Both the position numbers and the translations under genes were made by a program. Shown here piece after piece: positions 2,584-61,522 of a stretch of 64,000 nucleotides of DNA. The stretch's first letter is position 1; the number at the start of each line of letters is the position of its first letter. The notes beneath the pieces were generated by a model that saw only the letters and a program-made list of their open reading frames with translations, did no database searches and had not been told where the DNA came from. This DNA is from Buttiauxella sp. A111 (GTDB lineage: Bacteria > Pseudomonadota > Gammaproteobacteria > Enterobacterales > Enterobacteriaceae). The stretch is from assembly GCF_014189855.1 (NCBI RefSeq), contig NZ_BJFN01000004.1:62001-126000 (forward strand), written 5' to 3'.

Positions 2584-3678
2584 CTAAACCCGAATAAACG
2601 CCCGCCCATCACTATTAAACAAATAACAACTCTCCGGCGGAAGCCGTAGGCCGATACGTCGGTCAGCCTGAATTTCAAGCCTGGAAGTATGGCGCATCAC
2701 TAATGGTTCGCTACCGTAGCCGCCGTTAACGTAGAGTAGTGTCTCGTTGCCCATTTGCTCGACAAACAGCACTTCACCTTCGATATCTGCCTGCGCCAGG
2801 TCGGTAATCTGGATATGTTCAGGGCGGATCCCCAGTTGCACCGCTTGCCCCTCCGGCACGCCTGCACCGTTTATCGGCAGTGTGACTTCCTGACGATTCT
2901 CAAGCCGGACGTCGCTGCGCAATGCGCTGCCGTGCGTTAACACGCCAGGTATCAGATTCATTTTGGGCGAGCCAATAAACTGTGCGACAAACATATTTGC
3001 CGGGCGGTCATATAGCTCAAGCGGCGTACCCACCTGCTCAATTTGCCCCTGATTTAACACCACTATGCGGTCAGCAAGCGTCATCGCCTCCACCTGATCG
3101 TGGGTGACGTACAAAATGGTGGCGTTAATTCTTTTGTGAAGTGCGGCAATTTCCATGCGCATTTGCACCCGCAGTGAAGCATCAAGATTGGAAAGCGGCT
3201 CATCAAATAAAAAGAGCCTTGGTTCGCGCACAATGGCACGACCAATGGCCACGCGCTGGCGCTGGCCGCCGGAGAGATCTTTTGGTCGCCGATCGAGCAA
3301 AGGCTCGAGCTGCAAAATTCGCGCACTTTCGCGCACTTTTTCGTCGATATCTTTTACTGGCAGCTTCGCCATCTCCAGCGCAAACGCCATGTTCTGGTAC
3401 ACCGTCATATGTGGGTAGAGCGCGTAAGACTGGAACACCATACCGATACCGCGCTCTGACGGTGAATCATCGTTCACACAAACGCCGTCGATGCGCATCT
3501 CTCCTGCGCTTATCTCCTCAAGACCTGCGACCATCCGCAGCAAGGTGGATTTCCCGCAACCGGACGGCCCGACCACCACCACAAACTCCCCACTGTTCAC
3601 TTCCAGATCGAGTGGTTTAATCACTTCCGACGTGCTGCCGTAGCGTTTTTGAATTTTATCGAGCACGAGTTGCGCCAT
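2584..3678 (-). CDS. ABC sugar importer ATP-binding protein (MalK/UgpC family)
   Basis: The energising subunit of a binding-protein-dependent sugar importer, 364 residues, on the inner face of the membrane. Walker A GPSGCGKST (residues 37-45), Q-loop VFQSYALYPHMTV (about 82-93), signature LSGGQ (135-139) and Walker B LFLFDE (155-160) are intact. The C-terminal ~120 residues form the TOBE/regulatory domain usual for MalK- and UgpC-type proteins. It starts 2 bp after the stop of the second permease gene and is followed by repeats and then the GH13 genes. The family can serve several importers, but its place here indicates this transporter. Confidence 0.96.
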   Translation of the reverse strand: MAQLVLDKIQKRYGSTSEVIKPLDLEVNSGEFVVVVGPSGCGKSTLLRMVAGLEEISAGEMRIDGVCVNDDSPSERGIGMVFQSYALYPHMTVYQNMAFALEMAKLPVKDIDEKVRESARILQLEPLLDRRPKDLSGGQRQRVAIGRAIVREPRLFLFDEPLSNLDASLRVQMRMEIAALHKRINATILYVTHDQVEAMTLADRIVVLNQGQIEQVGTPLELYDRPANMFVAQFIGSPKMNLIPGVLTHGSALRSDVRLENRQEVTLPINGAGVPEGQAVQLGIRPEHIQITDLAQADIEGEVLFVEQMGNETLLYVNGGYGSEPLVMRHTSRLEIQADRRIGLRLPPESCYLFNSDGRAFIRV

Positions 3679-3680
3679 GG

Positions 3681-4529
3681 TTATCCCTTAATCGCTCCGC
3701 TGGTAAGTCCGCTGACAATACGTTTCTGGAAGATGAGCACCAGTATGATAATCGGCAATGTCACCACCACCGACGCCGCCATAATGCTGCCCCACGGCAG
3801 CTCAAAAGTTGATGCGCCGCTGAACATACTGATTGCCACGGGTACGGTGCGTTTATCGCCGGAAATAATAAACGTCAGGGCAAACATGAATTCGTTCCAC
3901 GCGCCGATAAACGCCAGCAGCCCGGTGGTGACCAGTGCAGGAGCCAGAATCGGTGCGAACACGCGGCGAATAATGGTCCAGGTTTTCGCCCCATCCACAA
4001 TCGCCGCCTCCTCCAGCTCAACCGGAATCGACTTCATAAAAGTGGTCAGCACCCAGACGGTGAACGGCAGAGAAAAAGTGGTGTACGAAAGCACCAGAGC
4101 GCCGAGCGAGTCATAAAGTCCAAGAAAGCGCACCAGCTCAAACATGCCGGTTAGCACCGCTACCTGTGGGAACATCGACACGCACAGAATGGTGAACAGA
4201 AGGAATTTACGCCCACGAAACGGCACTCGCGCCAGCGCAAACGAGGCGGTGATCGCCACCAACAAGCAGATGCCCACAGTCACCGACGCCACCAGCACCG
4301 AATTAAGCAGACTGCGGGCGATGCCATTATCGACCAGCGCCACCACATAGTTATGCCAGTGATAACCACTGGGCAGATACGACGGTAAAAACAGCTCCTG
4401 CCCGGTGCGCAACGACGTCAGAATGGCGTAATAAAATGGGAAAACGCAGAACAGCACGGCGAGCGTTGCGCCTGCATAGATAACCAGATGGTGACCGAAT
4501 TTTCGTTGCCGACGCGTGGTTTTCATCAC
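3681..4529 (-). CDS. ABC sugar importer permease (MalG-like)
   Basis: An inner-membrane permease of 282 residues with about six hydrophobic segments. The conserved cytoplasmic EAA loop is visible as EEAAIVDGAKTWTIIRRVFAPILAP (only part quoted here: EEAAIVDGAKTW), the contact site for the ATPase. Length and the family-typical ending fit MalG/LacG/UgpE-type subunits. The start overlaps the 3' end of the partner permease by 4 bp (ATGA), which implies translational coupling and fixes the start. Its role is sugar translocation together with the permease upstream. Confidence 0.95.
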   Translation of the reverse strand: MMKTTRRQRKFGHHLVIYAGATLAVLFCVFPFYYAILTSLRTGQELFLPSYLPSGYHWHNYVVALVDNGIARSLLNSVLVASVTVGICLLVAITASFALARVPFRGRKFLLFTILCVSMFPQVAVLTGMFELVRFLGLYDSLGALVLSYTTFSLPFTVWVLTTFMKSIPVELEEAAIVDGAKTWTIIRRVFAPILAPALVTTGLLAFIGAWNEFMFALTFIISGDKRTVPVAISMFSGASTFELPWGSIMAASVVVTLPIIILVLIFQKRIVSGLTSGAIKG

Positions 4530-5443
4530 CGCTTCTCCTTTTCGTTCAAACGTGAAACGCGGATAAAGCAGGCTGCAATCCCCGCCACCATCATGAACAC
4601 CAGCACCGAGGCTGCCGAGCCGACGCCCATATCCTGATAGGAGATGATTTGCTCACGGGCATAACCGGAAACGGACATTGTCGCCTCGCTGTTGGAGGTC
4701 AGCACGAAAATCAAATCGAAGATGCGCATCGCGTCCATGATGCGGAAGATCAACGCCACAATCATGGCGGGCATGATTAGCGGTAGCGTGATGCGCTTAA
4801 ACCGCTGCCAGGCACTGGCGCCATCTACGCGTGCGGCTTCGTAAAGATCGGTGGGGATCAGTTGAAGGGCCGCCAGCAACATTAATGCCATAAACGGCGT
4901 GGTTTTCCAGACATCAGCAATTACCACCGCCCACATCGACAGCGACGGTTCAGCAATCCACGCCAGATGCGCCTGGTAACCGAATATTTTCGCCAACAAG
5001 TCGTTCACCACGCCGTACTGATCATGGAACATCCAACCCCACATTTTGGCGCTGACGATAGTCGGAATGGCCCACGGCACCAGGATCGCCGTACGCACCA
5101 GCCCCTGGCCTCGAAACTTCTGGTTCATCAGCAGTGCCAGCAGCATGCCAAATAGCAGTTCTAACCCTACAGACACCACGGTAAACCACAACGTGTTACC
5201 GACTGCCTGCCACCAAAGCGGATCAACCAGCACGCCGCGGCTGTCACCACCGTTTGCGGCGTAATAGTTTGCCAGCCCCACCATTTGGTACTCGGACGGG
5301 TTGTCGAGCATTGCATTGGTGAAACTGAAAAAGAAGGTGCGCACCAGCGGCCAACCCGCCGCCAGTGCAAGAAGTAAGAGTGCGGGCGCCACCAGTATCC
5401 ATGCGATACGGCGACGCCGCTGTTGGTAACCTGAGTGCGCCAA
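4526..5443 (-). CDS. ABC sugar importer permease (MalF/UgpA-like), TTG start
   Basis: The partner inner-membrane permease, 305 residues, with the EAA loop EAARVDGASAWQRFKRI about 100 residues from the C-terminus and a first membrane segment at about 13-35. The start is a TTG that directly follows the TAA stop of the binding-protein gene, with AAGGA about 10 nt upstream inside that gene. No ATG or GTG gives the full first membrane segment, so TTG is the best start and may lower permease yield relative to the binding protein. It overlaps the next permease by 4 bp. Confidence 0.94.
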   Translation of the reverse strand: MAHSGYQQRRRRIAWILVAPALLLLALAAGWPLVRTFFFSFTNAMLDNPSEYQMVGLANYYAANGGDSRGVLVDPLWWQAVGNTLWFTVVSVGLELLFGMLLALLMNQKFRGQGLVRTAILVPWAIPTIVSAKMWGWMFHDQYGVVNDLLAKIFGYQAHLAWIAEPSLSMWAVVIADVWKTTPFMALMLLAALQLIPTDLYEAARVDGASAWQRFKRITLPLIMPAMIVALIFRIMDAMRIFDLIFVLTSNSEATMSVSGYAREQIISYQDMGVGSAASVLVFMMVAGIAACFIRVSRLNEKEKR

Positions 5444-6709
5444 TTAATGCCAGTCCTTACCTTTGACGCGTTCCAGACGTTTTTCCAGATCCGCCACGGC
5501 AGTCTTGCCGTCACTGCCGCCATTGAGCACCTTAAAGGTCACGTTGAAAATGGCGTTAGAGACACGCGGGTACTGGCTTTTGGTTGCCGTTGCCGGACGC
5601 GGAACCGCATTGGCGAAAATCTCTTTAAACAGCGTCAGATGCGGCGCGGTTTCCAGCACCGCTTTGTCCTCATATAAGGCCGAGCGCGTCGGTGCGAAGC
5701 CAAGATATTTCAGCTGCATTTTCTGCGAGTCGGCGTCGGTGAGGATTTTCAGCAGCGCAATGGCCGCATCTTTGTTTTTGGTGTTCGCATTGATTGACCA
5801 CTGCCAACCGCCAAGTGCGTTGGCCGATTTGCCATCCGGCCCGGCAGGAAGTGGTGCGACGCCCACTTTGCCTTTCAGCGGGCTATCAGCCCCTTGTGAA
5901 AGCAAATAGGCGTAAGGCCAGTTGCGCATAAACAGCGCGTCGCCGTTCTGGAACACCGAACGCGATTCTTCTTCTTTGTAGCCTAACGCCCCTTTCGGGG
6001 TGATTTTCCCAATCCAGCCCGCCACCATATCCAGCGCGGCGGCGGCCTTCGGATTATTAATGGTCACGTTCCCTTTTTCGTCGATGAACGTGCCACCGCC
6101 GTAAGAATCAATCCATTCCAGCGCGTTACAGGTCAGCCCCTCATACGACTTACCCTGGAAGATCATGCCCCAGAAGTTTTTATGCCCGGCTTTGCGTTCT
6201 TCTTCCTGAATTTTGGTGGCGATACGCGTCAGGTCTTCCCAGGTTTTTGGCGGCTGTTCGTTGTATTTTTCCAGCAGATCTTTGCGGTAATAGAGCACAC
6301 CCGTATCGAGATAAGCCGGAACCGCTTTGACTTTGCCGTTCACCGTGTCGTTTGCCCATGGGCCGGGGAAGAAATCGCCTTTCATATCGGCAACCGCATC
6401 GGTCAAATCGAGCGTTTGCTTATCCAGCAGCCCCACCCAGATGGTATCGGACTGGAACAAATCGACTGCTTTCTCATCTTTGGCCGCAAACAATTGCTGA
6501 AGTAAAGCCAGCTTCTCGTCAGATGCTGCAGGAAACTCGATGAACTCCAGCTTGTTGCTGGTCTGCTTTTCAAAACGGTCTTTGACGTAGTTGCAGTATT
6601 CCTTACCGCCGGGGGAGATCGGACATTCCATACGCAGAGTATCGGCCAGCGCGGCATTAGAAACGCCCGCCAGCGCTAAGGTAATAAGACTTAACGTCAG
6701 CTTTTTCAT
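5444..6709 (-). CDS. ABC sugar importer periplasmic binding protein
   Basis: A periplasmic solute-binding protein of 421 residues (extracellular family 1, MalE-like). It has a Sec signal peptide: MKK, a hydrophobic core to about residue 17, and a likely cut after AALA (residue 22). Sequence such as VPAYLDTGVLYYRKDLLEKY and NALGGWQW is characteristic of the family's sugar-binding cleft. A strong ribosome site (AGAGGA) precedes the ATG at 6709. It is the first gene of the importer operon, as expected for the most abundant component. The ligand is unknown; an alpha-glucoside or disaccharide fits the downstream GH13 genes. Confidence 0.95.
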   Translation of the reverse strand: MKKLTLSLITLALAGVSNAALADTLRMECPISPGGKEYCNYVKDRFEKQTSNKLEFIEFPAASDEKLALLQQLFAAKDEKAVDLFQSDTIWVGLLDKQTLDLTDAVADMKGDFFPGPWANDTVNGKVKAVPAYLDTGVLYYRKDLLEKYNEQPPKTWEDLTRIATKIQEEERKAGHKNFWGMIFQGKSYEGLTCNALEWIDSYGGGTFIDEKGNVTINNPKAAAALDMVAGWIGKITPKGALGYKEEESRSVFQNGDALFMRNWPYAYLLSQGADSPLKGKVGVAPLPAGPDGKSANALGGWQWSINANTKNKDAAIALLKILTDADSQKMQLKYLGFAPTRSALYEDKAVLETAPHLTLFKEIFANAVPRPATATKSQYPRVSNAIFNVTFKVLNGGSDGKTAVADLEKRLERVKGKDWH

Positions 6710-42306: not shown

Positions 42307-42936
42307 TTATGTGGTTTCACGCTTTGTTTTTTGTAACACCTTGAAGACAGTGCTCCGCCCCATCCCAAGCGTTTTTACAATATCCTCAATTTTCCAACCT
42401 GCATTTCTCAGTTCGATTACCTGGCGGTGTTTTTCGTGGTTCGCCTGCTTACCTGGATAGCGCCCCAACTCTTTAGCCTTGCGTATACCTTCAGTCTGTC
42501 GGCGTCGACGATCCTCGTAATCCTTGCGGGCTATTGCTGCGAGCATATCCAGCAATAAAGAGTTAATTAACTCCATCATTCTCCCGCTGAAGTCGTCCGT
42601 CGTGGCGTTGACCATTGCCCAAGAGGTAGGAAGGTCCAAGGCCACTATCTTCACCCCCTTATCGGAAATGATGCGGCGGAGTTTTTCCCAGTCGGCGGTT
42701 CTCATGCGGGAAAGGCGGTCGACCTGTTCCAGTAGGATAACGTCGCCTGGTTCGCAATTTTCCAGCATTCGGAAAAGCTCAGGCCTGTCCAGTACCGCGC
42801 CGCTTTCATTTTCCACGTACCAACCAGAAATTCGAAAGCCCTGGGATTTTGCAAAATCCTTCAGGGCCTTTTCTGCCCGCATTGCGTCCTGCTCTTTCGT
42901 TGATGCTCTCATGTACGCATTAATAACCATCGTCAT
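42307..42936 (-). CDS. Serine recombinase (resolvase/invertase family)
   Basis: A 209-residue small serine recombinase. The catalytic Ser12 sits in YMRASTKEQ, LLEQVDRLSRMR is the conserved arginine helix, and the C-terminal HTH is KIEDIVKTLGMGRSTVFKVL. Such enzymes invert or resolve DNA between two crossover sites. No inverted pair of recombination sites is obvious around the fibre gene, so its target is unknown; it might act elsewhere or be a cargo gene. It has its own terminator. Confidence 0.92.
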   Translation of the reverse strand: MTMVINAYMRASTKEQDAMRAEKALKDFAKSQGFRISGWYVENESGAVLDRPELFRMLENCEPGDVILLEQVDRLSRMRTADWEKLRRIISDKGVKIVALDLPTSWAMVNATTDDFSGRMMELINSLLLDMLAAIARKDYEDRRRRQTEGIRKAKELGRYPGKQANHEKHRQVIELRNAGWKIEDIVKTLGMGRSTVFKVLQKTKRETT

Positions 42937-47394: not shown

Positions 47395-47659
47395 CTTGTT
47401 TACCCTCTAGGCGGTCAAGACGTTTTTCAGTGTCGGCGTTAACTAGCTCTTGCGCTGCGGTTGAAAGCTCCAGCTTTGTGAGTAGTTTTTGGTTTTCCTT
47501 TCCGGTTGCGCCGTTCTCTTCGATTGTTTTAGCAATGGCATCGACCCGCTCGCCGTAGCGCCCCAGCGTTCCCGCCATTGTGAGCATAGAGATAACGACG
47601 CCGGAGCCGACAAGGGTTAATAGCCAGTGAGGTTTAGAAGGTGCGGATTCCTGCGACAT
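47378..47659 (-). CDS. Phage membrane-anchored coiled-coil protein
   Basis: A 93-residue protein from the ATG at 47659 (GGGGTG 5 nt upstream): a short N-terminal tail, one membrane segment (WLLTLVGSGVVISMLTMAG), then a heptad-rich helix (LLTKLELSTAAQELVNADTEKRLDRLEG). A holin-like or lysis-timing role is possible, and it is the only candidate of that kind in the virion operon; it could equally be a tail or ejection helper. It overlaps neighbours on both sides. Confidence 0.65.
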   Translation of the reverse strand: MSQESAPSKPHWLLTLVGSGVVISMLTMAGTLGRYGERVDAIAKTIEENGATGKENQKLLTKLELSTAAQELVNADTEKRLDRLEGKQDAIRN

Positions 47660-48221
47660 TCTGCACCCCCGCGCCACTCTTGAATTTCTCGAATTGCATG
47701 TTCAAATTGCTGATTTCCGTAGCGGCGAGGCCTGCCCAAGCTTGCGCGGCCTTGCTGTCGCGGGTGAACACACCCAATACAGAGAGCGCCTGCCATAACA
47801 AGGCGTTTTCGGCTTCTTTGGTGTAGGCGTTTTCTTGCTGCATATCGGCGAGGCGCTGCGGCTTGTTCCATCCGGTCAAGTCGATTAATGCGGGGGCGAC
47901 GATTTCCATGTTTGCGCCAACGATGGCATAAGCGCGGGACTCATCCACCAGCAACCGCCGTTGTACGATTTCGTCATAGCCCATCAATAGCCCGACCTGC
48001 CCATTAATGAGGACTTGCTCAAGCTCCATAATGGTTAGGGGAATTGACAGGCCGTCAGCGTTTACTTGCTTCGTGACGGTCATAGACGGAACGCGAAGGT
48101 TCCCATCCAGATGCGTTTCGGCTGCTCGAATGAACGCGGGGATTTGCGCCAGTGTCTTCTGGTCTGTTCGACCGGAAAACGCCTGGACCGCTTTCTTTAA
48201 CTCTGCGTAAGTTGTAGGCAT
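47634..48221 (-). CDS. Head-tail adaptor-like protein
   Basis: A 195-residue helical protein: MPTTYAELKKAVQAFSGRTD, AQIPAFIRAAETHLDGNLRV and ENALLWQALSVLGVFTRDSKAA fit the gp6-like head-tail connector/adaptor family of podoviruses. It lies downstream of the capsid gene and before the fibre genes, the usual place of connector genes. Confidence 0.7.
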   Translation of the reverse strand: MPTTYAELKKAVQAFSGRTDQKTLAQIPAFIRAAETHLDGNLRVPSMTVTKQVNADGLSIPLTIMELEQVLINGQVGLLMGYDEIVQRRLLVDESRAYAIVGANMEIVAPALIDLTGWNKPQRLADMQQENAYTKEAENALLWQALSVLGVFTRDSKAAQAWAGLAATEISNLNMQFEKFKSGAGVQNVAGIRTF

Positions 48222-48275
48222 GGTCTACCTCGAAATCTAAGCCAGCCCGAAAGCCAGCTTTTTCCAGTGCCGAAA

Positions 48276-48551
48276 TTAGGCGTATTTCAGTGTCTTTTTT
48301 TCGCTACGAAGCACCGAACAAATGCGGCGAATAACCTCGCCTTCTGGCGTGTCGGGAGTTGGTCGCCCGGTAAGAACCATGACGATATAGTCCACAATTT
48401 TCCCCTGGTCTTCAGGCTGAAGCGCATCCCACTCTGGCTGGGGTTCTTTGGTCAACGCTTCGCGTAGGGCGGTTACGCCTGCGTAGCAAATCTGGGCAAT
48501 GGTTGAAACTTCGAGGGATAGTTTTGCGGTCACTTGCGGATTCCTTATCAC
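48276..48551 (-). CDS. Small phage protein in virion operon
   Basis: A 91-residue helical protein (STIAQICYAGVTALREALTK, then IVDYIVMVLTGRPTP) between the capsid/Ig gene and the adaptor gene. No family recognised; position suggests a head or connector accessory role. Confidence 0.7.
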   Translation of the reverse strand: MIRNPQVTAKLSLEVSTIAQICYAGVTALREALTKEPQPEWDALQPEDQGKIVDYIVMVLTGRPTPDTPEGEVIRRICSVLRSEKKTLKYA

Positions 48552-48581
48552 AAAAAAGGGCGCGTCATGCGCCCTTGTGGG

Positions 48582-49010
48582 TTATTTGGCTTTTTTTGCC
48601 TTCTTTGGCGCTTTCGCTTCAGTTGCCATCACTGGTTGGTAATGACTCGCCATTACTGGAGGCGTTAGTGCTGTTTCAACACTCGCCATCATTACCGCAG
48701 TGACCGTTAAGGTCGCTTGCCCGCTTACGTTATTAGCAAGGCTGTCGGTGACTGACATCGTTACTGCGTAACTACCCGCCGCCGTTGGGGTTCCAGTAAT
48801 CGCGCCCGTTTGCGCGTTAATGGTTAGGCCCAATGCGCCGCCACTTGCCGTCATGCTCCATACTTTAGAGTAGGAGCCATCGTCGGCATCAACCAGTGTT
48901 GCCACTGCTGTTTGGTTGTAGGCGGTTCCAACCGTTGCGCTTGTCAGGGCTGCAACGGTCACGGTTTTAATTACGCTGCCACGAAAGGGACGATTGCTGC
49001 GGACGACCAT
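48582..49010 (-). CDS. Ig-like domain extension of the capsid (-1 frame)
   Basis: An open frame of 142 codons in the -1 frame relative to the capsid gene, overlapping its last 13 codons. It encodes a putative Ig (cadherin/He_PIG-like) domain (TVGTAYNQTAVATLVDADDG, GLTINAQTGAITGTPTAAGS) and a Lys/Ala tail. The first ATG (49010) lies just after a -1 frame stop and has no ribosome site, so independent initiation is poor. A -1 slip at the heptamer 48983-48989 would give a capsid fusion of about 446 residues; such Ig extensions on phage heads are known to arise this way. Confidence 0.8.
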   Translation of the reverse strand: MVVRSNRPFRGSVIKTVTVAALTSATVGTAYNQTAVATLVDADDGSYSKVWSMTASGGALGLTINAQTGAITGTPTAAGSYAVTMSVTDSLANNVSGQATLTVTAVMMASVETALTPPVMASHYQPVMATEAKAPKKAKKAK

Positions 49011-49921
49011 GGGTTACGGTGTCGTAGACCTAAGTCGACGTGCATCACCAACTTTTTAAAGTCACCCTGCTTGCCTGCAACGTCAGTGATAGGAGCGCGA
49101 AAAAGTGGGGATTCCCAGTCCTTGCTGTTGAACAGATAAACGGTGTTTGCTGGCATATGGCGGTTGTAGATAACGCGGACAGTTTGGCCCAGTGCGTCGG
49201 TAATGGTATTTACCTCAACAGTGATTTTGGTCGCGTTGTCACCTTCGAACATACGAAGACGGCTAGTCCCTTCCATTGCGCCGGAGATCACATCAGACAT
49301 AGTTTCGGAACACATCAAGACTTCAGGCTTGCCGCCAGTGGTCCACAGAGCCGCCATGCCCGCGAAAATTTCAACAAGCGTTGGCTTTGCGCCTGCGGCT
49401 TCGATGTAAGTCACGGTGCCTGTCAGCGGATCACCTTCAATAGTAACGCCGCCATCAATAGAGGAAATCATAGACGCATAACCGCCCAGTTTGCGTGGAG
49501 AAACACCTTTGACTTCGGCTTTGGTAGCGCCGTTATTTAGGAATGAGTGCTCAATATCACGCTTCAGTTCTGAGGCTTTTTTAGTGGTCTGGTACTCAGA
49601 TTCTTTACCGCGACCCCATGCGGCCTGGGCGTCAGCGTCGCCAGTTACCAGAACGGCCTTGCCCATTTTTTGCGTATAACCGACCATAGGAATGGTTGGC
49701 GCGAAAGTGTCGTCCAAGTCGTTGAAGTTGAAACCTTCAAACAGAGCGTTATTCGGGTCTACTGGTGCGTCGCTATCAGTCTGCCATTCGAATTTGGCGT
49801 TGCCCGTTGCCGCCTTTCCAATCATTGCCTGGAATGGATATTCATCGGGGGAAATATTAGAGATCCAATCGGCAAAGGATTGTTTGACGCCGTTAAGTTC
49901 GTAGGAATTGAGTTGTGGCAT
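48971..49921 (-). CDS. Major capsid protein (SU10-like, DUF5309 type)
   Basis: A 316-residue HK97-fold-type capsid protein of the SU10 family: NISPDEYPFQAMIGKAATGN, FEWQTDSDAPVDPNNALFEG and MGKAVLVTGDADAQAAWGRG are family features. Start MPQLNSYELNG with GGAAG upstream. The last codons contain C CCT TTC, a perfect -1 slippery heptamer 12 nt before the stop, leading into an Ig-like domain frame. Most particles would carry the 316-residue form with a minority of the extended form. Confidence 0.9.
   Translation of the reverse strand: MPQLNSYELNGVKQSFADWISNISPDEYPFQAMIGKAATGNAKFEWQTDSDAPVDPNNALFEGFNFNDLDDTFAPTIPMVGYTQKMGKAVLVTGDADAQAAWGRGKESEYQTTKKASELKRDIEHSFLNNGATKAEVKGVSPRKLGGYASMISSIDGGVTIEGDPLTGTVTYIEAAGAKPTLVEIFAGMAALWTTGGKPEVLMCSETMSDVISGAMEGTSRLRMFEGDNATKITVEVNTITDALGQTVRVIYNRHMPANTVYLFNSKDWESPLFRAPITDVAGKQGDFKKLVMHVDLGLRHRNPWSSAAIVPFVAA
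48983..48989 (-). promoter_or_regulatory. Slippery heptamer for -1 frameshift
   Basis: Minus-strand C CCT TTC in the capsid frame (P-site Pro CCU can re-pair as CCC, A-site Phe UUC as UUU). The capsid stop is 12 nt beyond it. A perfect 8-bp hairpin, ACCGTTGC/GCAACGGT, begins about 23 nt downstream, farther than the usual 5-9 nt, so its help is uncertain. Confidence 0.7.
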
Positions 49922-55826: not shown

Positions 55827-57863
55827 TTACTCTGTTGTGCGAGTCTGAGCGGCTTCCTCTTCGTCGTTGTTATCTTCGATTACCTTTGCGGCCTCCAGTG
55901 TCTGGGCCTTGTTTGTCGCGTCGATATCAGCCACCAGCTTCAGCTTGTCCAGGTCGATTCCCTCCATAATCTCCTCAATTTCAGCCAGGACTTTAGCCGC
56001 TTCGTTCAATTTTTTCTGAGTGTCAGCGGTACTGTCCTGAACCTTCGCTTCCGCAAGCTTCGTTGTCGCAATGGCGTGGCGTAGTTGGCAAAGCGCCATG
56101 ACCGCCTGCAACTTCTGTTGTTGCTCTGAAGGTTTCGGCATCTCTGAAGGCGGCGTAATGTATCGGGACACGTCTTCGCCATTGGTCACGGCGCGGAGGT
56201 AGTCGGCGAAAATCGTGTATTTGTTTTCCTCCGTGAAGTTCGCGGGCAAGGTTCCTGTCTGGGCTGCGGACTGATAGCACTGGAGCACGTTTAACGCGGC
56301 GTTAGCCCGATCACCTGCGGACTTGATGTCCACCTTCAGCCCGATGTCGTCACGAAGAACCTTAAACGGGATGGACTGCCCTTCGATATCAAGAACGGAC
56401 CCAATTTCCTGCGCAACCAACAAGAAAATTCGGTAAGCAGGTTTGACGAATGTTTCCGCAAACACCTTTGCAATGCTGTTTTCGTTAATCTCGTCTTTTG
56501 CCTGGGTCAGCGCGATAGCCACGCCGGACTGTTGAACCTTTTGGGCTGCTTCCGCTGCTGATTGACCCGCACTACCCAACCGAGCGGCCTCAACATCATT
56601 CTGAAACTCACCCGCTAAAATCTGCATAGCTTGCGGGACGTCTGGAGTTGGTAAGCGGTTAATGCTGCCCTTCTGTTTGGTCAAGTACACCTTGCCTGGC
56701 TGCGTTCTATCGTTGAGCGCTGCTTTTGCCTGCGGGGTCAGCATACTGTCGACAATTTCAACGTCAGGATAAGCCGCGAAGTCTGCGCTACGCTGGATAG
56801 AGCGGCGGGCGCGGGTCGTGTTTTCCTGCGCTGATTTGGTGCGATCATACAAGCTTTCACCGTGGGCGCTGTTAGGGACAACGGACATTGCCCCCCAGAT
56901 TAACGGGCAATATGGCACCTCTTCGTGCATCACGTAGGCGCTGTCAGTAGTCACAACGTGGTAAAGCTTTTCATCTGCGGAGTTGTAACACCCGCGCCAG
57001 TAGTGGTGAAACACGGTAATGATGTTGTTTAGCTCTTCCGAAGCACACACCGCCATTTCTTCCGTTGCCTGCGCATTAAGGTTTCCAGTGACTAACATCG
57101 ACGTGTCGAGGCTGCGCCCGTTGTTGGTGTCCACATCGTTAGCGTTCACGACAGTTTCACGCTTATAGCCGCGTTTGATTGCTGCGGCATTGGTCAGCTC
57201 TTCCGCATAGGCGCAATAGTTAGCGGTCTGCGGACAAACAGCGCGGGGCGACAAAAAGAAATCCTTGAACGGAATCAGGTCAATTACTGGAAACTTGAAC
57301 GTGTGAACACCTTGCTGCCAGCCAGTTGCGGTTGGGCCATCTTCTCCGTCTTCAAATTTCAGACTCGACTCAATGCTATAACCTGCGGTTTCCAACATTT
57401 TTTGGTCTGTCAGAACTTGCTGGGCGGGTGCGACGTCGTAGGTGTATTTTTCTGACTTTGTTACCTTTTCGTCATAGCCAACCAACCCTGCCTGATTGCC
57501 ACTAATCAGGACCTCTTTCAGCGCCAAATAAATCTTAATTTCCCAGTCAGCAATCCCCAGCGCCATAGCGTGAACAGCGCGGGTTACGGCTGAAGCTAGT
57601 TTGTTTTCGGACTTCGCGTCCTTTGTGAAAGCCACTGGCGCTTTCTGGTCATCGGTAAAGATAGCCACCAGCGAAGGATGGACGGATTCAAAAGATTCCA
57701 TCATTACCTGCCGGGCGGCAACGTCACCAGGAGCCAGGATTTCCGGTAATTCCCCGCGATAGAATCCCCATGCTTTGGCGTAGCGGTCCGCCAGTTCGGT
57801 TTGGCGGGTTACGGCTGCGTCTTTGTGGCGCATCACTTCGGTGTAAAGTTCTTGTTTGTTCAT
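55827..57863 (-). CDS. Phage portal protein
   Basis: A 678-residue portal of the podovirus type: GFYRGELPEILAPGDVAARQ, FPVIDLIPFKDFFLSPRA, FHHYWRGCYNSADEKLYHVV, PNSAHGESLYDRTKSAQENT and a long C-terminal helix for the barrel. It overlaps the terminase gene by 4 bp. The dodecameric ring it forms docks the motor and starts head assembly. Confidence 0.88.
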   Translation of the reverse strand: MNKQELYTEVMRHKDAAVTRQTELADRYAKAWGFYRGELPEILAPGDVAARQVMMESFESVHPSLVAIFTDDQKAPVAFTKDAKSENKLASAVTRAVHAMALGIADWEIKIYLALKEVLISGNQAGLVGYDEKVTKSEKYTYDVAPAQQVLTDQKMLETAGYSIESSLKFEDGEDGPTATGWQQGVHTFKFPVIDLIPFKDFFLSPRAVCPQTANYCAYAEELTNAAAIKRGYKRETVVNANDVDTNNGRSLDTSMLVTGNLNAQATEEMAVCASEELNNIITVFHHYWRGCYNSADEKLYHVVTTDSAYVMHEEVPYCPLIWGAMSVVPNSAHGESLYDRTKSAQENTTRARRSIQRSADFAAYPDVEIVDSMLTPQAKAALNDRTQPGKVYLTKQKGSINRLPTPDVPQAMQILAGEFQNDVEAARLGSAGQSAAEAAQKVQQSGVAIALTQAKDEINENSIAKVFAETFVKPAYRIFLLVAQEIGSVLDIEGQSIPFKVLRDDIGLKVDIKSAGDRANAALNVLQCYQSAAQTGTLPANFTEENKYTIFADYLRAVTNGEDVSRYITPPSEMPKPSEQQQKLQAVMALCQLRHAIATTKLAEAKVQDSTADTQKKLNEAAKVLAEIEEIMEGIDLDKLKLVADIDATNKAQTLEAAKVIEDNNDEEEAAQTRTTE

Positions 57864-59500
57864 CCTGCAAAAGCTCCCATTGCTTGCGCGTAATCGTTGA
57901 TTGCTGCGTATGCGACGTCCTGTCGTTTCTTGCGTTTGGCGCTGCTCATCGCTTCGCCGTCGTCCCTAACCCGTATCGCTGCAATTCGCATTGCGTCCAG
58001 GAAATGGTTGTTTTTGTCTGCGGGGATGGTCCGTTGACCACGCTTAACCCATTGGTAAAGCTGAAATTCCTTGAGCAAGCCTAGGCAGTTGCTAAAGATT
58101 TTCAACTCCCCATCCTGGAACCACTGCGCCAGCAAGTTAATGGACCCGACCAGGCTGCGGCGATTCGCCTCCAGTGGCGCAAGGTCTGGGGGGATCTCGA
58201 AGTTTTCATGATGTACGTTCGCGCCCTTCTCCCTCATGATTTCGGCGCGGGTCTGCTGTGTTCCTGGCTGAATGCCGTTACCGTCATGCGGGGACTTGAC
58301 CACAATTCCAGGTAAGCCCAGCCCTTCAAAATCTAACTCGCCGTTAGTCGCTTCGTGCCAGTCGTTAGGCGCTGCGCCAACAATCTTTGCTGCCATATAG
58401 TCAGGCATATGGCTGTTCGCGTAGTGGTCGCGGTCCTGCTCGCTACTCCATTCGGTGAAAATGTATTTCTTCCCGTCGTCTGGGTTCATAGCCACGCTAA
58501 CCACAATTGATGGGTCACTAATGCCCGAATAGCCAAAGTCGAGGGCGGACAATACAAGCCAGTGGTCTGGAATCTCAAAGGCCGCGACGGTCACCTGTTC
58601 CGGTGCATATGGATAGATAGCGCCGCTGCCCATGACAGGGATTCCAAGACTTCTCATTTTCCGCTGATAGTAGGGAATACGGGCCAATAGTGACTTTTTG
58701 ACCTCTTCGGTCAGGTGGGGCGCGTCGTCCCAGGTCGCGTTTTGAAAGTAAATCTCTCCGGTGGCGTCATCACGACATTGAGCGTAGAAGTCCGTCGCCC
58801 CAACTTCGGGGGTTGCAGTACAAGCAATACAGCCCTTAGTGGTTGTAGTACGTGTCGTACATTGGGCAATGATTTCAAGCTCTCTTTCGGACTGCTCATC
58901 AACCCAGGCAAAGACGATTGATTGACCCATGTAGACTGTCTCGTCCTGAGTTGCAGAATAAAAATGAATCTCACTTTCCACCCCTGAAGCGTGTCTAACA
59001 CGCAATGAAATTAACGATTCGCCACGCCTAACGATGGAATCCCACACAATCAACTCGCGCGGAATTGACCCGGTGCCGTAAGCGTTCGTGTTCCTAGCGT
59101 CATTGGTTCCAATCAACTCCTTTTGCAGGACCTTGCGCGTTGAGTCCGAGGAAATACCCACGGCCCACAACGTGCCAGCCTCACAACGGAAGCCGCGCCA
59201 CCACGCTGGATATAGTCCGGTTGCGTGATAGGCAAATTCATGCGCCGCACCGTATGTCTTGCCGATACGGTTAGCGGCGGACAGGTAGCGAAGCAGAAAG
59301 CTGGACCCACTTTCGAACCATTTGACCTGGTAGTCATACGGCTGGAACAAGTCCCATTTAAAGTATTTGTTGAAGTGCTGCGCCATTCGAACAACATGGG
59401 GATGCGCCTTAATTGCCGCCTTGCCTGCGCGGGCTAATGCCTTTGCTGCTTCGCGGACCTTCTGGCGTTTCTCGAAGCCATCCAGCGTTAGCACGGTCAC
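57860..59500 (-). CDS. Terminase large subunit
   Basis: A 546-residue packaging motor. The ATPase part has a deviant Walker A, SAANRIGKTYGAA (about residue 74), the TGLYPAWWRG loop, and Walker B VFAWVDEQSE; the nuclease part has ALDFGYSG and HFLDAMR with catalytic acids. It overlaps the small-subunit-position gene and the portal gene by 4 bp each. Confidence 0.95.
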   Translation of the reverse strand: MTVLTLDGFEKRQKVREAAKALARAGKAAIKAHPHVVRMAQHFNKYFKWDLFQPYDYQVKWFESGSSFLLRYLSAANRIGKTYGAAHEFAYHATGLYPAWWRGFRCEAGTLWAVGISSDSTRKVLQKELIGTNDARNTNAYGTGSIPRELIVWDSIVRRGESLISLRVRHASGVESEIHFYSATQDETVYMGQSIVFAWVDEQSERELEIIAQCTTRTTTTKGCIACTATPEVGATDFYAQCRDDATGEIYFQNATWDDAPHLTEEVKKSLLARIPYYQRKMRSLGIPVMGSGAIYPYAPEQVTVAAFEIPDHWLVLSALDFGYSGISDPSIVVSVAMNPDDGKKYIFTEWSSEQDRDHYANSHMPDYMAAKIVGAAPNDWHEATNGELDFEGLGLPGIVVKSPHDGNGIQPGTQQTRAEIMREKGANVHHENFEIPPDLAPLEANRRSLVGSINLLAQWFQDGELKIFSNCLGLLKEFQLYQWVKRGQRTIPADKNNHFLDAMRIAAIRVRDDGEAMSSAKRKKRQDVAYAAINDYAQAMGAFAG

Positions 59501-60445: not shown

Positions 60446-61522
60446 CTAAAGCGGGGTCTTTTTGGCGGTTAGCTCGTCAAAGCGTTCGTGAAGGGTTTCG
60501 GGGTACATTTCGCGGTAAACAGTCCACAAAGTTTTCAATGACTTATGTCCCGTAACCTGAGCAACCTCTTCAACCGTAAATCCGTATTCAAAGAGGCGAC
60601 TCGCCCCCTCACGACGGGCGTCATGTAAGCGAATATCAGGGATGTTTAGCTTGTGTTTTATATCCTGGAAAAGCTGGCTCATGGTCTTAGGGTTGACCGG
60701 GAATATAAATTCAGGGGTTCGGGGCTGGCGCTGGACTATATTCCACGCCTCACCCAGCAGCGGAACAACCATGTGATTCCCCTGTTTCTTGCGCGGGTCT
60801 TTGCGGTCACGCACCAGGATAGACCGGGTTTCTGTGTTCAGGTCATCCCACCGGATGCGACACACCTCGCCCAGTCTCATGCATGACCAGATAGAGAACT
60901 CAAACAAATCATCATAGCGATTGCCCAAGCGCGAGCGGCGAGCATGAAGGGCTAAAACTTCGTGAAGCCTGACATATTCCTCCCGGCTTATTCTGCGGTT
61001 GCGGGTGTTCGATTTTGTCAGGACGTTGAGTCGTTGCAGGTAAATCCATGCGGCGCGGTACTCATCCACCAGCGCCTTTTCTCCATAGAACGGAAGCGCT
61101 ACATCCAGCGCGGTCTTAACATACGAAAGTTCCGTAGCGACGGTTGACCCGGACACCTTCGCCCGTCGCGTCCTGGCGAACTCTACCCAGCGGGACATTG
61201 TTAGCTCAACCAGAGGAAAATCGACGATAGAGTATCGTTTTACCATGCCTAGTCGACCAATCTTGTCTGCCCCCTTTTTCATATTCGGATCTGCTAGATA
61301 GCGGTCTATTAGCTCGCCCAGGGTCATTCCCTTTTTCTTTACTGTTACGCCGCTCTCCAGTTCCGCCACGCGGTGAGCGCCCCATGCCTTCGCTTGCGCC
61401 TGGCGGGGAAAGGTTTTTGATTCGCGGTGAACGTATACGCCACCCTCTTTAATCCCAACCGTGACGCGGTATCGAGCAACACCTAGCGAGGTCGTTCTTT
61501 TTTCGACTGTGTAAAAGGCCAT
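60446..61522 (-). CDS. Prophage tyrosine integrase
   Basis: A 358-residue tyrosine recombinase: N-terminal arm-binding domain (about 1-60), a core-binding SAM-like region (GMTLGELIDRYLADPNMKKG), and the catalytic domain with Arg in SCMRLGEVCRI, the HxxR in HDARREGASRL, TGHKSLKTLW and the Tyr in WTVYREMYPETL. AGGGAG lies 8 nt before the ATG at 61522. It is adjacent to attR, as usual, and acts on the 13-bp core in tehB. Confidence 0.95.
   Translation of the reverse strand: MAFYTVEKRTTSLGVARYRVTVGIKEGGVYVHRESKTFPRQAQAKAWGAHRVAELESGVTVKKKGMTLGELIDRYLADPNMKKGADKIGRLGMVKRYSIVDFPLVELTMSRWVEFARTRRAKVSGSTVATELSYVKTALDVALPFYGEKALVDEYRAAWIYLQRLNVLTKSNTRNRRISREEYVRLHEVLALHARRSRLGNRYDDLFEFSIWSCMRLGEVCRIRWDDLNTETRSILVRDRKDPRKKQGNHMVVPLLGEAWNIVQRQPRTPEFIFPVNPKTMSQLFQDIKHKLNIPDIRLHDARREGASRLFEYGFTVEEVAQVTGHKSLKTLWTVYREMYPETLHERFDELTAKKTPL

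Follow-up and report, generated by a model that had tools for sequence, protein, structure and literature searches.

Organization of the head genes in the prophage

The DNA analysed here is a stretch of 64,000 nucleotides from Buttiauxella sp. A111 (the window), and it carries a prophage whose genes lie on the minus strand at about 38-62 kb. The portal, capsid and adaptor genes were all assigned by Pfam to the SU10 kind. The capsid reading frame matched the Pfam family SU10_MCP with an E-value of 8.3e-54 (183.5 bits, cut-off 24.1) and PHROG 1328 (major head protein) with an E-value of 1.2e-55. The 642- and 415-residue products encoded next to it matched nothing in Pfam or PHROG at E 0.01. The capsid gene was present in two of the 12 genomes of the genus, that of the window and G009, and was absent from G099, the sole other genome of the window's species. 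No DNA relative was found in the E. coli set. Three distant capsid matches were seen on Sinorhizobium plasmids.

Table 1. Coordinates of the head genes, predicted recoding elements and selected prophage genes in the window
Feature	Position	Strand	Basis or remark
Integrase	60446-61522	-	
Terminase	57860-59500	-	
Two genes, 642 and 415 aa	50041-53213	-	Directly upstream of capsid gene, in the place expected for scaffold
Major capsid protein, SU10 type, 316 aa (short product)	48971..49921	-	Pfam and PHROG matches
First ATG of the Ig-like frame	49008..49010	-	
Putative slippery heptamer C CCT TTC	48983..48989	-	Sequence; in capsid (zero) frame
Hairpin, perfect 8-bp stem ACCGTTGC/GCAACGGT	48931..48959	-	Sequence; 23 nt past heptamer
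Predicted -1 extension: Ig-like domain and lysine-rich tail, 133 aa past heptamer, and stop	48582..48982	-	He_PIG, model, third-position excess
Terminator-like hairpin and T run	48556..48576	-	Stem and T run scan; directly past Ig stop
Small gene, 85 aa	48276..48533	-	GTG 48533 placed by alignment; ORF list gives 48551
Second putative slippery heptamer A AAA AAG	48294..48300	-	Sequence
Predicted -1 extension of small gene	48055..48293	-	About 24 codons past small-gene stop conserved; rest overlaps adaptor gene
SU10-type adaptor protein	47634..48221	-	Pfam SU10_adaptor, E 2.8e-9; start overlaps second extension
DNA invertase	42307-42936	-	

The capsid protein ends with ...RNPWSSAAIVPFVAA*, and the 3' end of its gene reads ATC GTC CCT TTC GTG GCA GCG TAA. 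The heptamer C CCT TTC has the X XXY YYZ form, and the zero and -1 frames overlap there. Across 20 ORFs of the region, in-frame heptamers of this form occupied 15 of 6193 codon positions (0.24% per codon). Two of these 15 were located within 15 nt of a stop, namely CCCTTTC in the capsid gene and AAAAAAG in the next gene. A preliminary description of this DNA had proposed a programmed -1 frameshift that fuses the capsid to an Ig-like domain at a perfect slippery heptamer, 12 nt before the capsid stop. The heptamer in the capsid frame was confirmed, but the distance was not, as 9 nt separate its end from the TAA at 48973-48971 and 12 are reached only by counting the stop codon. The Ig-like frame is the -1 frame, is closed just upstream by a TAA at 49016-49014 and opens with an ATG devoid of an SD-like motif, all as described previously. 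Recounting gave 313 + 133 = 446 residues for the product of a slip, in agreement with the approximate length predicted before.

The -1 extension in the window and in close relatives

Assignment of the extension as Ig-like was based on a profile match above the curated cut-off and on a beta-sandwich-type fold, both of which were found in the window. The extension matched Pfam He_PIG with an E-value of 1.3e-10 (42 bits, cut-off 24), and its predicted structure was an all-strand sandwich of eight strands with a mean pLDDT of 80, the tail being mostly below 50. The top Foldseek match of this model in the PDB was a fragment of SraP (E 3.4e-4, TM about 0.5), and phi29 head chains were also among the first matches (E 1.2e-3 and up). 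A search of BFVD returned 17 matches at E <=0.001, several of them named as Ig, BIG2 or PKD phage proteins.

Eight distinct close relatives with 59-77% capsid identity were compared with the window after identical stretches had been merged (L002, L006, L014, L015, L017, L018, L007 and L019). L006, from genome G009, belongs to the same genus as the window genome and, counted from the start of the capsid gene, is identical to L008 for 1700 bases. The split arrangement, consisting of a -1 extension and a heptamer at homologous codons, was present in the window and in seven of the eight relatives. The capsid end carries CCCTTTC in the window, L002, L006 and L014, and the homologous codons carry CCCAAAA in L015, CCCAAAG in L019 and GGGAAAG in L018 and L007. 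The last two are 96% identical and not independent; the fraction of identical codons at their same-residue sites was 0.92. Codon identity at CCT TTC alone was considered as a statistic and discarded as weak, since 44-60% of the same-residue sites share codons anyway among the close loci. The capsid gene of L019 has an internal reading-frame break at about 3300-3403, due either to decay or to a sequencing error, which makes this locus weaker evidence than the others.

Two types of extension were distinguished. In the five aligned type-A extensions (window, L006, L014, L015 and L019) the residues Ser-His-Tyr and a Val three residues further on are invariant, and in the window they are part of the SHYQPV of the lysine-rich tail. 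For type B (L002, L018 and L007), an Ig nature is suggested by a sub-threshold Big_3_2 match in L002 (E 0.03), with none in L007, and the model of the L002 domain had a pLDDT of 57. Differences at codon positions 1/2/3 in the -1 frame, summed over pairs, amounted to 466/425/772 in type A and to 113/98/168 in type B, and the window-L006 pair had a dN of 0.24 and a dS of 1.05. This third-position excess together with the dN and dS values indicated that the frame past the heptamer is read as protein.

The eighth relative, L017, has the capsid and a type-B domain in a single open frame (3919-4365), with C CCA AAG still in frame. A -1 slip at this CCCAAAG would terminate ten residues on and yield a short form, swapping the frames in which the plain and the extended product are read; L017 may also be an assembly error, because it is represented by a single metagenomic contig. 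This in-frame fusion, as well as the broken capsid frame of L019, could be taken to mean that the split arrangement of the window is a decayed or mis-sequenced fusion without function. However, the same -1 relation was found in eight close-clade loci from isolates and metagenomes, the genomes of L006 and L007 consist of one or two contigs, and the protein-level constraint on the extension speaks against decay. We consider such an origin highly improbable.

The comparison of L002 with L014 pointed to an exchange of extensions. Their DNA is 89% identical over L002 positions 2946 to 5940, and the heptamer of L002 ends at 5939. Past the heptamer the extension is of type B in L002 and of type A in L014, and the two sequences become similar again at L002 position 6300, before the small gene. 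In this one pair the slippery site is likely an exchange seam, to within the few bases that local alignment resolves. The boundary suggests that such domains are mobile as cassettes joined at a fixed seam, the slippery site.

Distribution of the capsid site and comparison with known systems

A capsid match was found in 285 phage records, of which 17 were picked for diversity and examined together with the nine close loci (26 loci). Thirteen of the 26 combine a -1 extension with a canonical heptamer; these are eight close-clade loci as well as phiEco32, KBNP1711, WFI101126, 3H10_20 and 009. LAh_6 (L023, near 3931) and TacPo2 (L024, near 3904) have an Ig-type -1 extension in which GGTAAAG replaces the heptamer, and one locus, L017, is fused in frame. 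The other ten lack an extension of this kind, and their final 150 nt contain no heptamer. Three of these ten, 7-11 (L010), BUCT695 (L030) and A24 (L009), carry a tandem second capsid gene. In 7-11 and BUCT695 this gene has a Big_2 domain in frame; the match in A24 was sub-threshold.

Among viral contigs, the best 80 of at least 586 capsid matches represented 78 distinct loci; 76 were examined, the other two being close relatives counted already. A heptamer at most 90 nt from the stop together with an open -1 frame was present in three of the 76 loci among these best 80 matches, all of Kuravirus type with an Ig extension. Eight others from the same best matches had a -1 frame of at least 60 codons, which, as judged by eye, corresponds either to the following gene, itself equipped with a start, or to a frame left open in GC-rich sequence. 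L115, L116 and L120 lack an Ig-type extension and a usable heptamer; L116 retains GGGAAAG, but there the -1 frame stays open for nine codons only. In the pooled set, a canonical heptamer was present in 13 of 15 loci with an Ig-type -1 extension, and a usable heptamer in 0 of 86 loci without one (Fisher test, 1.3e-14, with kinship ignored). L120 was included in the Fisher tests, even though it has a broken small gene and a junction closely similar to the one in L115.

Alternatively, the Ig-like protein could be made alone, either from the ATG at 49010 (142 residues) or by termination and re-initiation at a GTG near the capsid stop. An ATG or GTG is present at this place in all eight close-clade loci, with an additional TTG further upstream in the -1 frame of L006; the Ig ORF lends itself to annotation as a gene, and phiEco32 has a separate annotated Ig gene. 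However, this ATG or GTG is an out-of-frame reading of conserved Asn-Pro-Trp codons (Asn-Met-Trp in L014), and in the window the two GTGs that follow the ATG in the Ig frame likewise lack an SD-like motif. Over 14 loci no listed start was preceded by such a motif, except for one GTG in KBNP1711 (AGGA), and 3H10_20 and 009 have no ATG, GTG or TTG start within the stretch examined. Moreover, the -1 peptide from the start to the heptamer was by eye not conserved, whereas the peptide past the heptamer is. Independent synthesis of the Ig-like protein thus appears improbable.

The preliminary description had also drawn attention to a hairpin about 23 nt past the heptamer. The 8-bp stem exists, but a stimulatory role found no backing, since the 65 nt after the heptamer were no more stably folded than their dinucleotide-shuffled versions (z -0.58) and the stem is not conserved, similar ones being present only in L006 and L014. 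The usual spacing between heptamer and stimulator is 5-9 nt, which is shorter than the 23 nt seen here. The hairpin is probably not the stimulator in the window and was rejected as a general one. Over the 12 capsid junctions that were folded, z ranged from -4.4 (L014) to +1.5, and only L014 was clearly below its shuffles. No SD-like element was noticed by eye in the 22 nt upstream of the junctions. According to passages of PMC5009743, stimulatory signals are common but not obligatory and seem dispensable for some tailed-phage shifts. With regard to the terminator-like hairpin past the Ig stop, five such sites were observed on both strands of the region against 3.5 expected, a count not above chance.

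The heptamers CCCAAAG and GGGAAAG of the relatives are named as highly shift-prone in E. coli in the part of PMC5009743 devoted to such sites. CCCTTTC is not among the heptamers named in that part, and in a mycovirus a +1 slip is proposed at CCCTTTC/CCCUUUC in the passage concerned of PMC9029208; both points count against a -1 shift in the window. The lack of a conserved stimulator also stands against it, as do LAh_6 and TacPo2, whose -1 Ig extensions lack a canonical heptamer. On balance, a programmed -1 ribosomal frameshift at the capsid end is very probably the best explanation of the arrangement. The earlier proposal gained support from the heptamer and -1 frame in relatives, the protein-like evolution of the extension and the published equivalents described below. 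We infer from the sequence comparison that the long fusion is made in this prophage.

According to this explanation, most ribosomes would stop at the TAA and release the 316-residue capsid protein. A minority would slip back by one base at C CCT TTC, the Pro codon CCU re-pairing on CCC and the Phe codon UUC on UUU, and would continue in the -1 frame through the Ig-like domain and the lysine-rich tail, giving a capsid protein of 446 residues that bears them at its C-terminus. This long form would enter heads and presumably display the Ig-like domain on them. For other phages, slip frequencies of about 3.5% (lambda) and about 10% (T3/T7) are quoted in a passage of PMC9965538; for the window, a low frequency is what we infer.

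Frameshifted Ig-bearing capsids had been said to be known from other phages, and they are indeed published in the same capsid family with mass-spectrometric support. In the relevant sections of PMC7881722, Privateer has GGGAAAG in its capsid gene, two gel bands and a minor capsid protein identified by mass spectrometry, and the frameshifted product is stated to have been seen in phiEco32 and SU10. YF01 has GGGAAAG and a -1 Ig extension, and the -1 frame of SU10 closes early, as given in the corresponding part of PMC9965538. The account of the SU10 head by cryo-EM in PMC9509320 is of a head without density for the Ig protein gp10, which counts against the present explanation, although the -1 frame of SU10 closes early. 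Like the window, the phiEco32-like phages Privateer and YF01 have a capsid of the SU10_MCP family, a heptamer near the capsid stop and a -1 Ig-like extension, and in phiEco32 the heptamer is separated from the stop by 9 nt as well. In contrast, the phiEco32-like phages are lytic and use GGGAAAG, whereas the window has CCCTTTC in an integrated prophage (GGGAAAG occurs in its relatives L018 and L007), and phiEco32 and 3H10_20 have Big_2 or I-set domains instead of He_PIG.

Outside this family, T3/T7 gene 10 and Lactobacillus phage A2 form a minor capsid protein by a -1 frameshift, with Ig-like extensions in T3 and A2, in different phages and capsid genes from those of the window (examples in PMC5009743). 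The low-frequency -1 slip in the phage morphogenesis gene that produces lambda G-GT, treated in the same source, resembles that proposed here; G-GT, unlike the capsid subunit of the window, is a tail chaperone absent from mature virions. The phages 7-11, BUCT695 and A24 resemble the window in that a plain capsid protein is accompanied by an Ig-bearing one from the same family, but these are encoded by two genes, with Big_2 in frame in the second (sub-threshold in A24) and no heptamer. The lambda G-GT site is presumably GGGAAAG, the same heptamer as in L018 and L007.

This kind of frameshift is thus already known in the capsid family. New here are the CCCTTTC heptamer, for which literature searches found no published case as a -1 site (also as CCCUUUC), the likely exchange seam and the putative second site described below. 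The range of the known capsid frameshift would grow beyond lytic podoviruses to include a group of integrated Enterobacteriaceae prophages, and one capsid family would reach a plain and an Ig-bearing capsid by several routes, namely -1 frameshift, tandem duplication (7-11, BUCT695 and, weakly, A24) and in-frame fusion that retains the heptamer (L017).

A second candidate frameshift site in the next gene

A further -1 frameshift, distinct from the first and absent from the preliminary description, seems to operate in the next gene. Its small protein ends with SEKKTLKYA*, and AAAAAAG lies 15 nt before the stop. In six loci the -1 extension shows the pattern LIxxLxKAGxxxGxDxxxDH, with AAAAAAG as the heptamer in the window, L003 and L019 and CCCAAAG in L002, L014 and L015; both are listed as E. 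coli shift-prone sites in the passage on such heptamers in PMC5009743. In L018, L115 and L116 the two lysines are encoded by AAG AAG or AAG AAA without a heptamer, the -1 frame past the stop has 15, 15 and 13 codons, respectively, and the pattern is incomplete. L120 was counted in the test of the second site too; without it, six loci with the site stand against three that lack it. Over 15 pairs, the first 24 codons of the second extension had 94/63/165 changes at positions 1/2/3, and no start codon is common to the six extensions. The end of the second product is uncertain, because, some 24 codons on, the frame runs into the adaptor gene and becomes variable in length.

The seven A in a row at this site in the window and L003 would also suit slippage of the RNA polymerase, by which the frames would be joined in the transcript and not by the ribosome. 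Such slippage is very unlikely at either site, as the capsid heptamers contain runs of identical bases of three or four only and the second site is CCCAAAG in three of the six loci. A stem about 20-30 nt downstream of the second site was found in all six loci, with z values of -2.7 in the window, -3.0 in L019 and -1.1 to -1.8 in the other four. A terminator-like stem with a T run lies nearby in L115 and L116, so that a stem of this kind could account for part of the DNA conservation.

No relatives of the small protein were found in the phage set, and its match to PHROG 5154 was weak (E 0.005-0.02), as were the other matches. Weak matches in 30 genomes besides that of the window (E 6.9e-5 to 1e-3) fell almost without exception within long reading frames of reduced genomes; their length and score led us to regard them as spurious.

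Taken together, we find it fairly likely that the head operon contains two back-to-back programmed -1 frameshifts. The CCCTTTC site, without a conserved stimulator, would add an exchangeable cassette, Ig-like in the window and, for at least one pair of phages, delimited at the heptamer. The second site would add a conserved segment that overlaps the adaptor start, perhaps coupling the dosage of the small protein to adaptor translation. The second site would give an uncharacterised gene of the head operon a testable two-product design, and both long products would escape ordinary gene calling.
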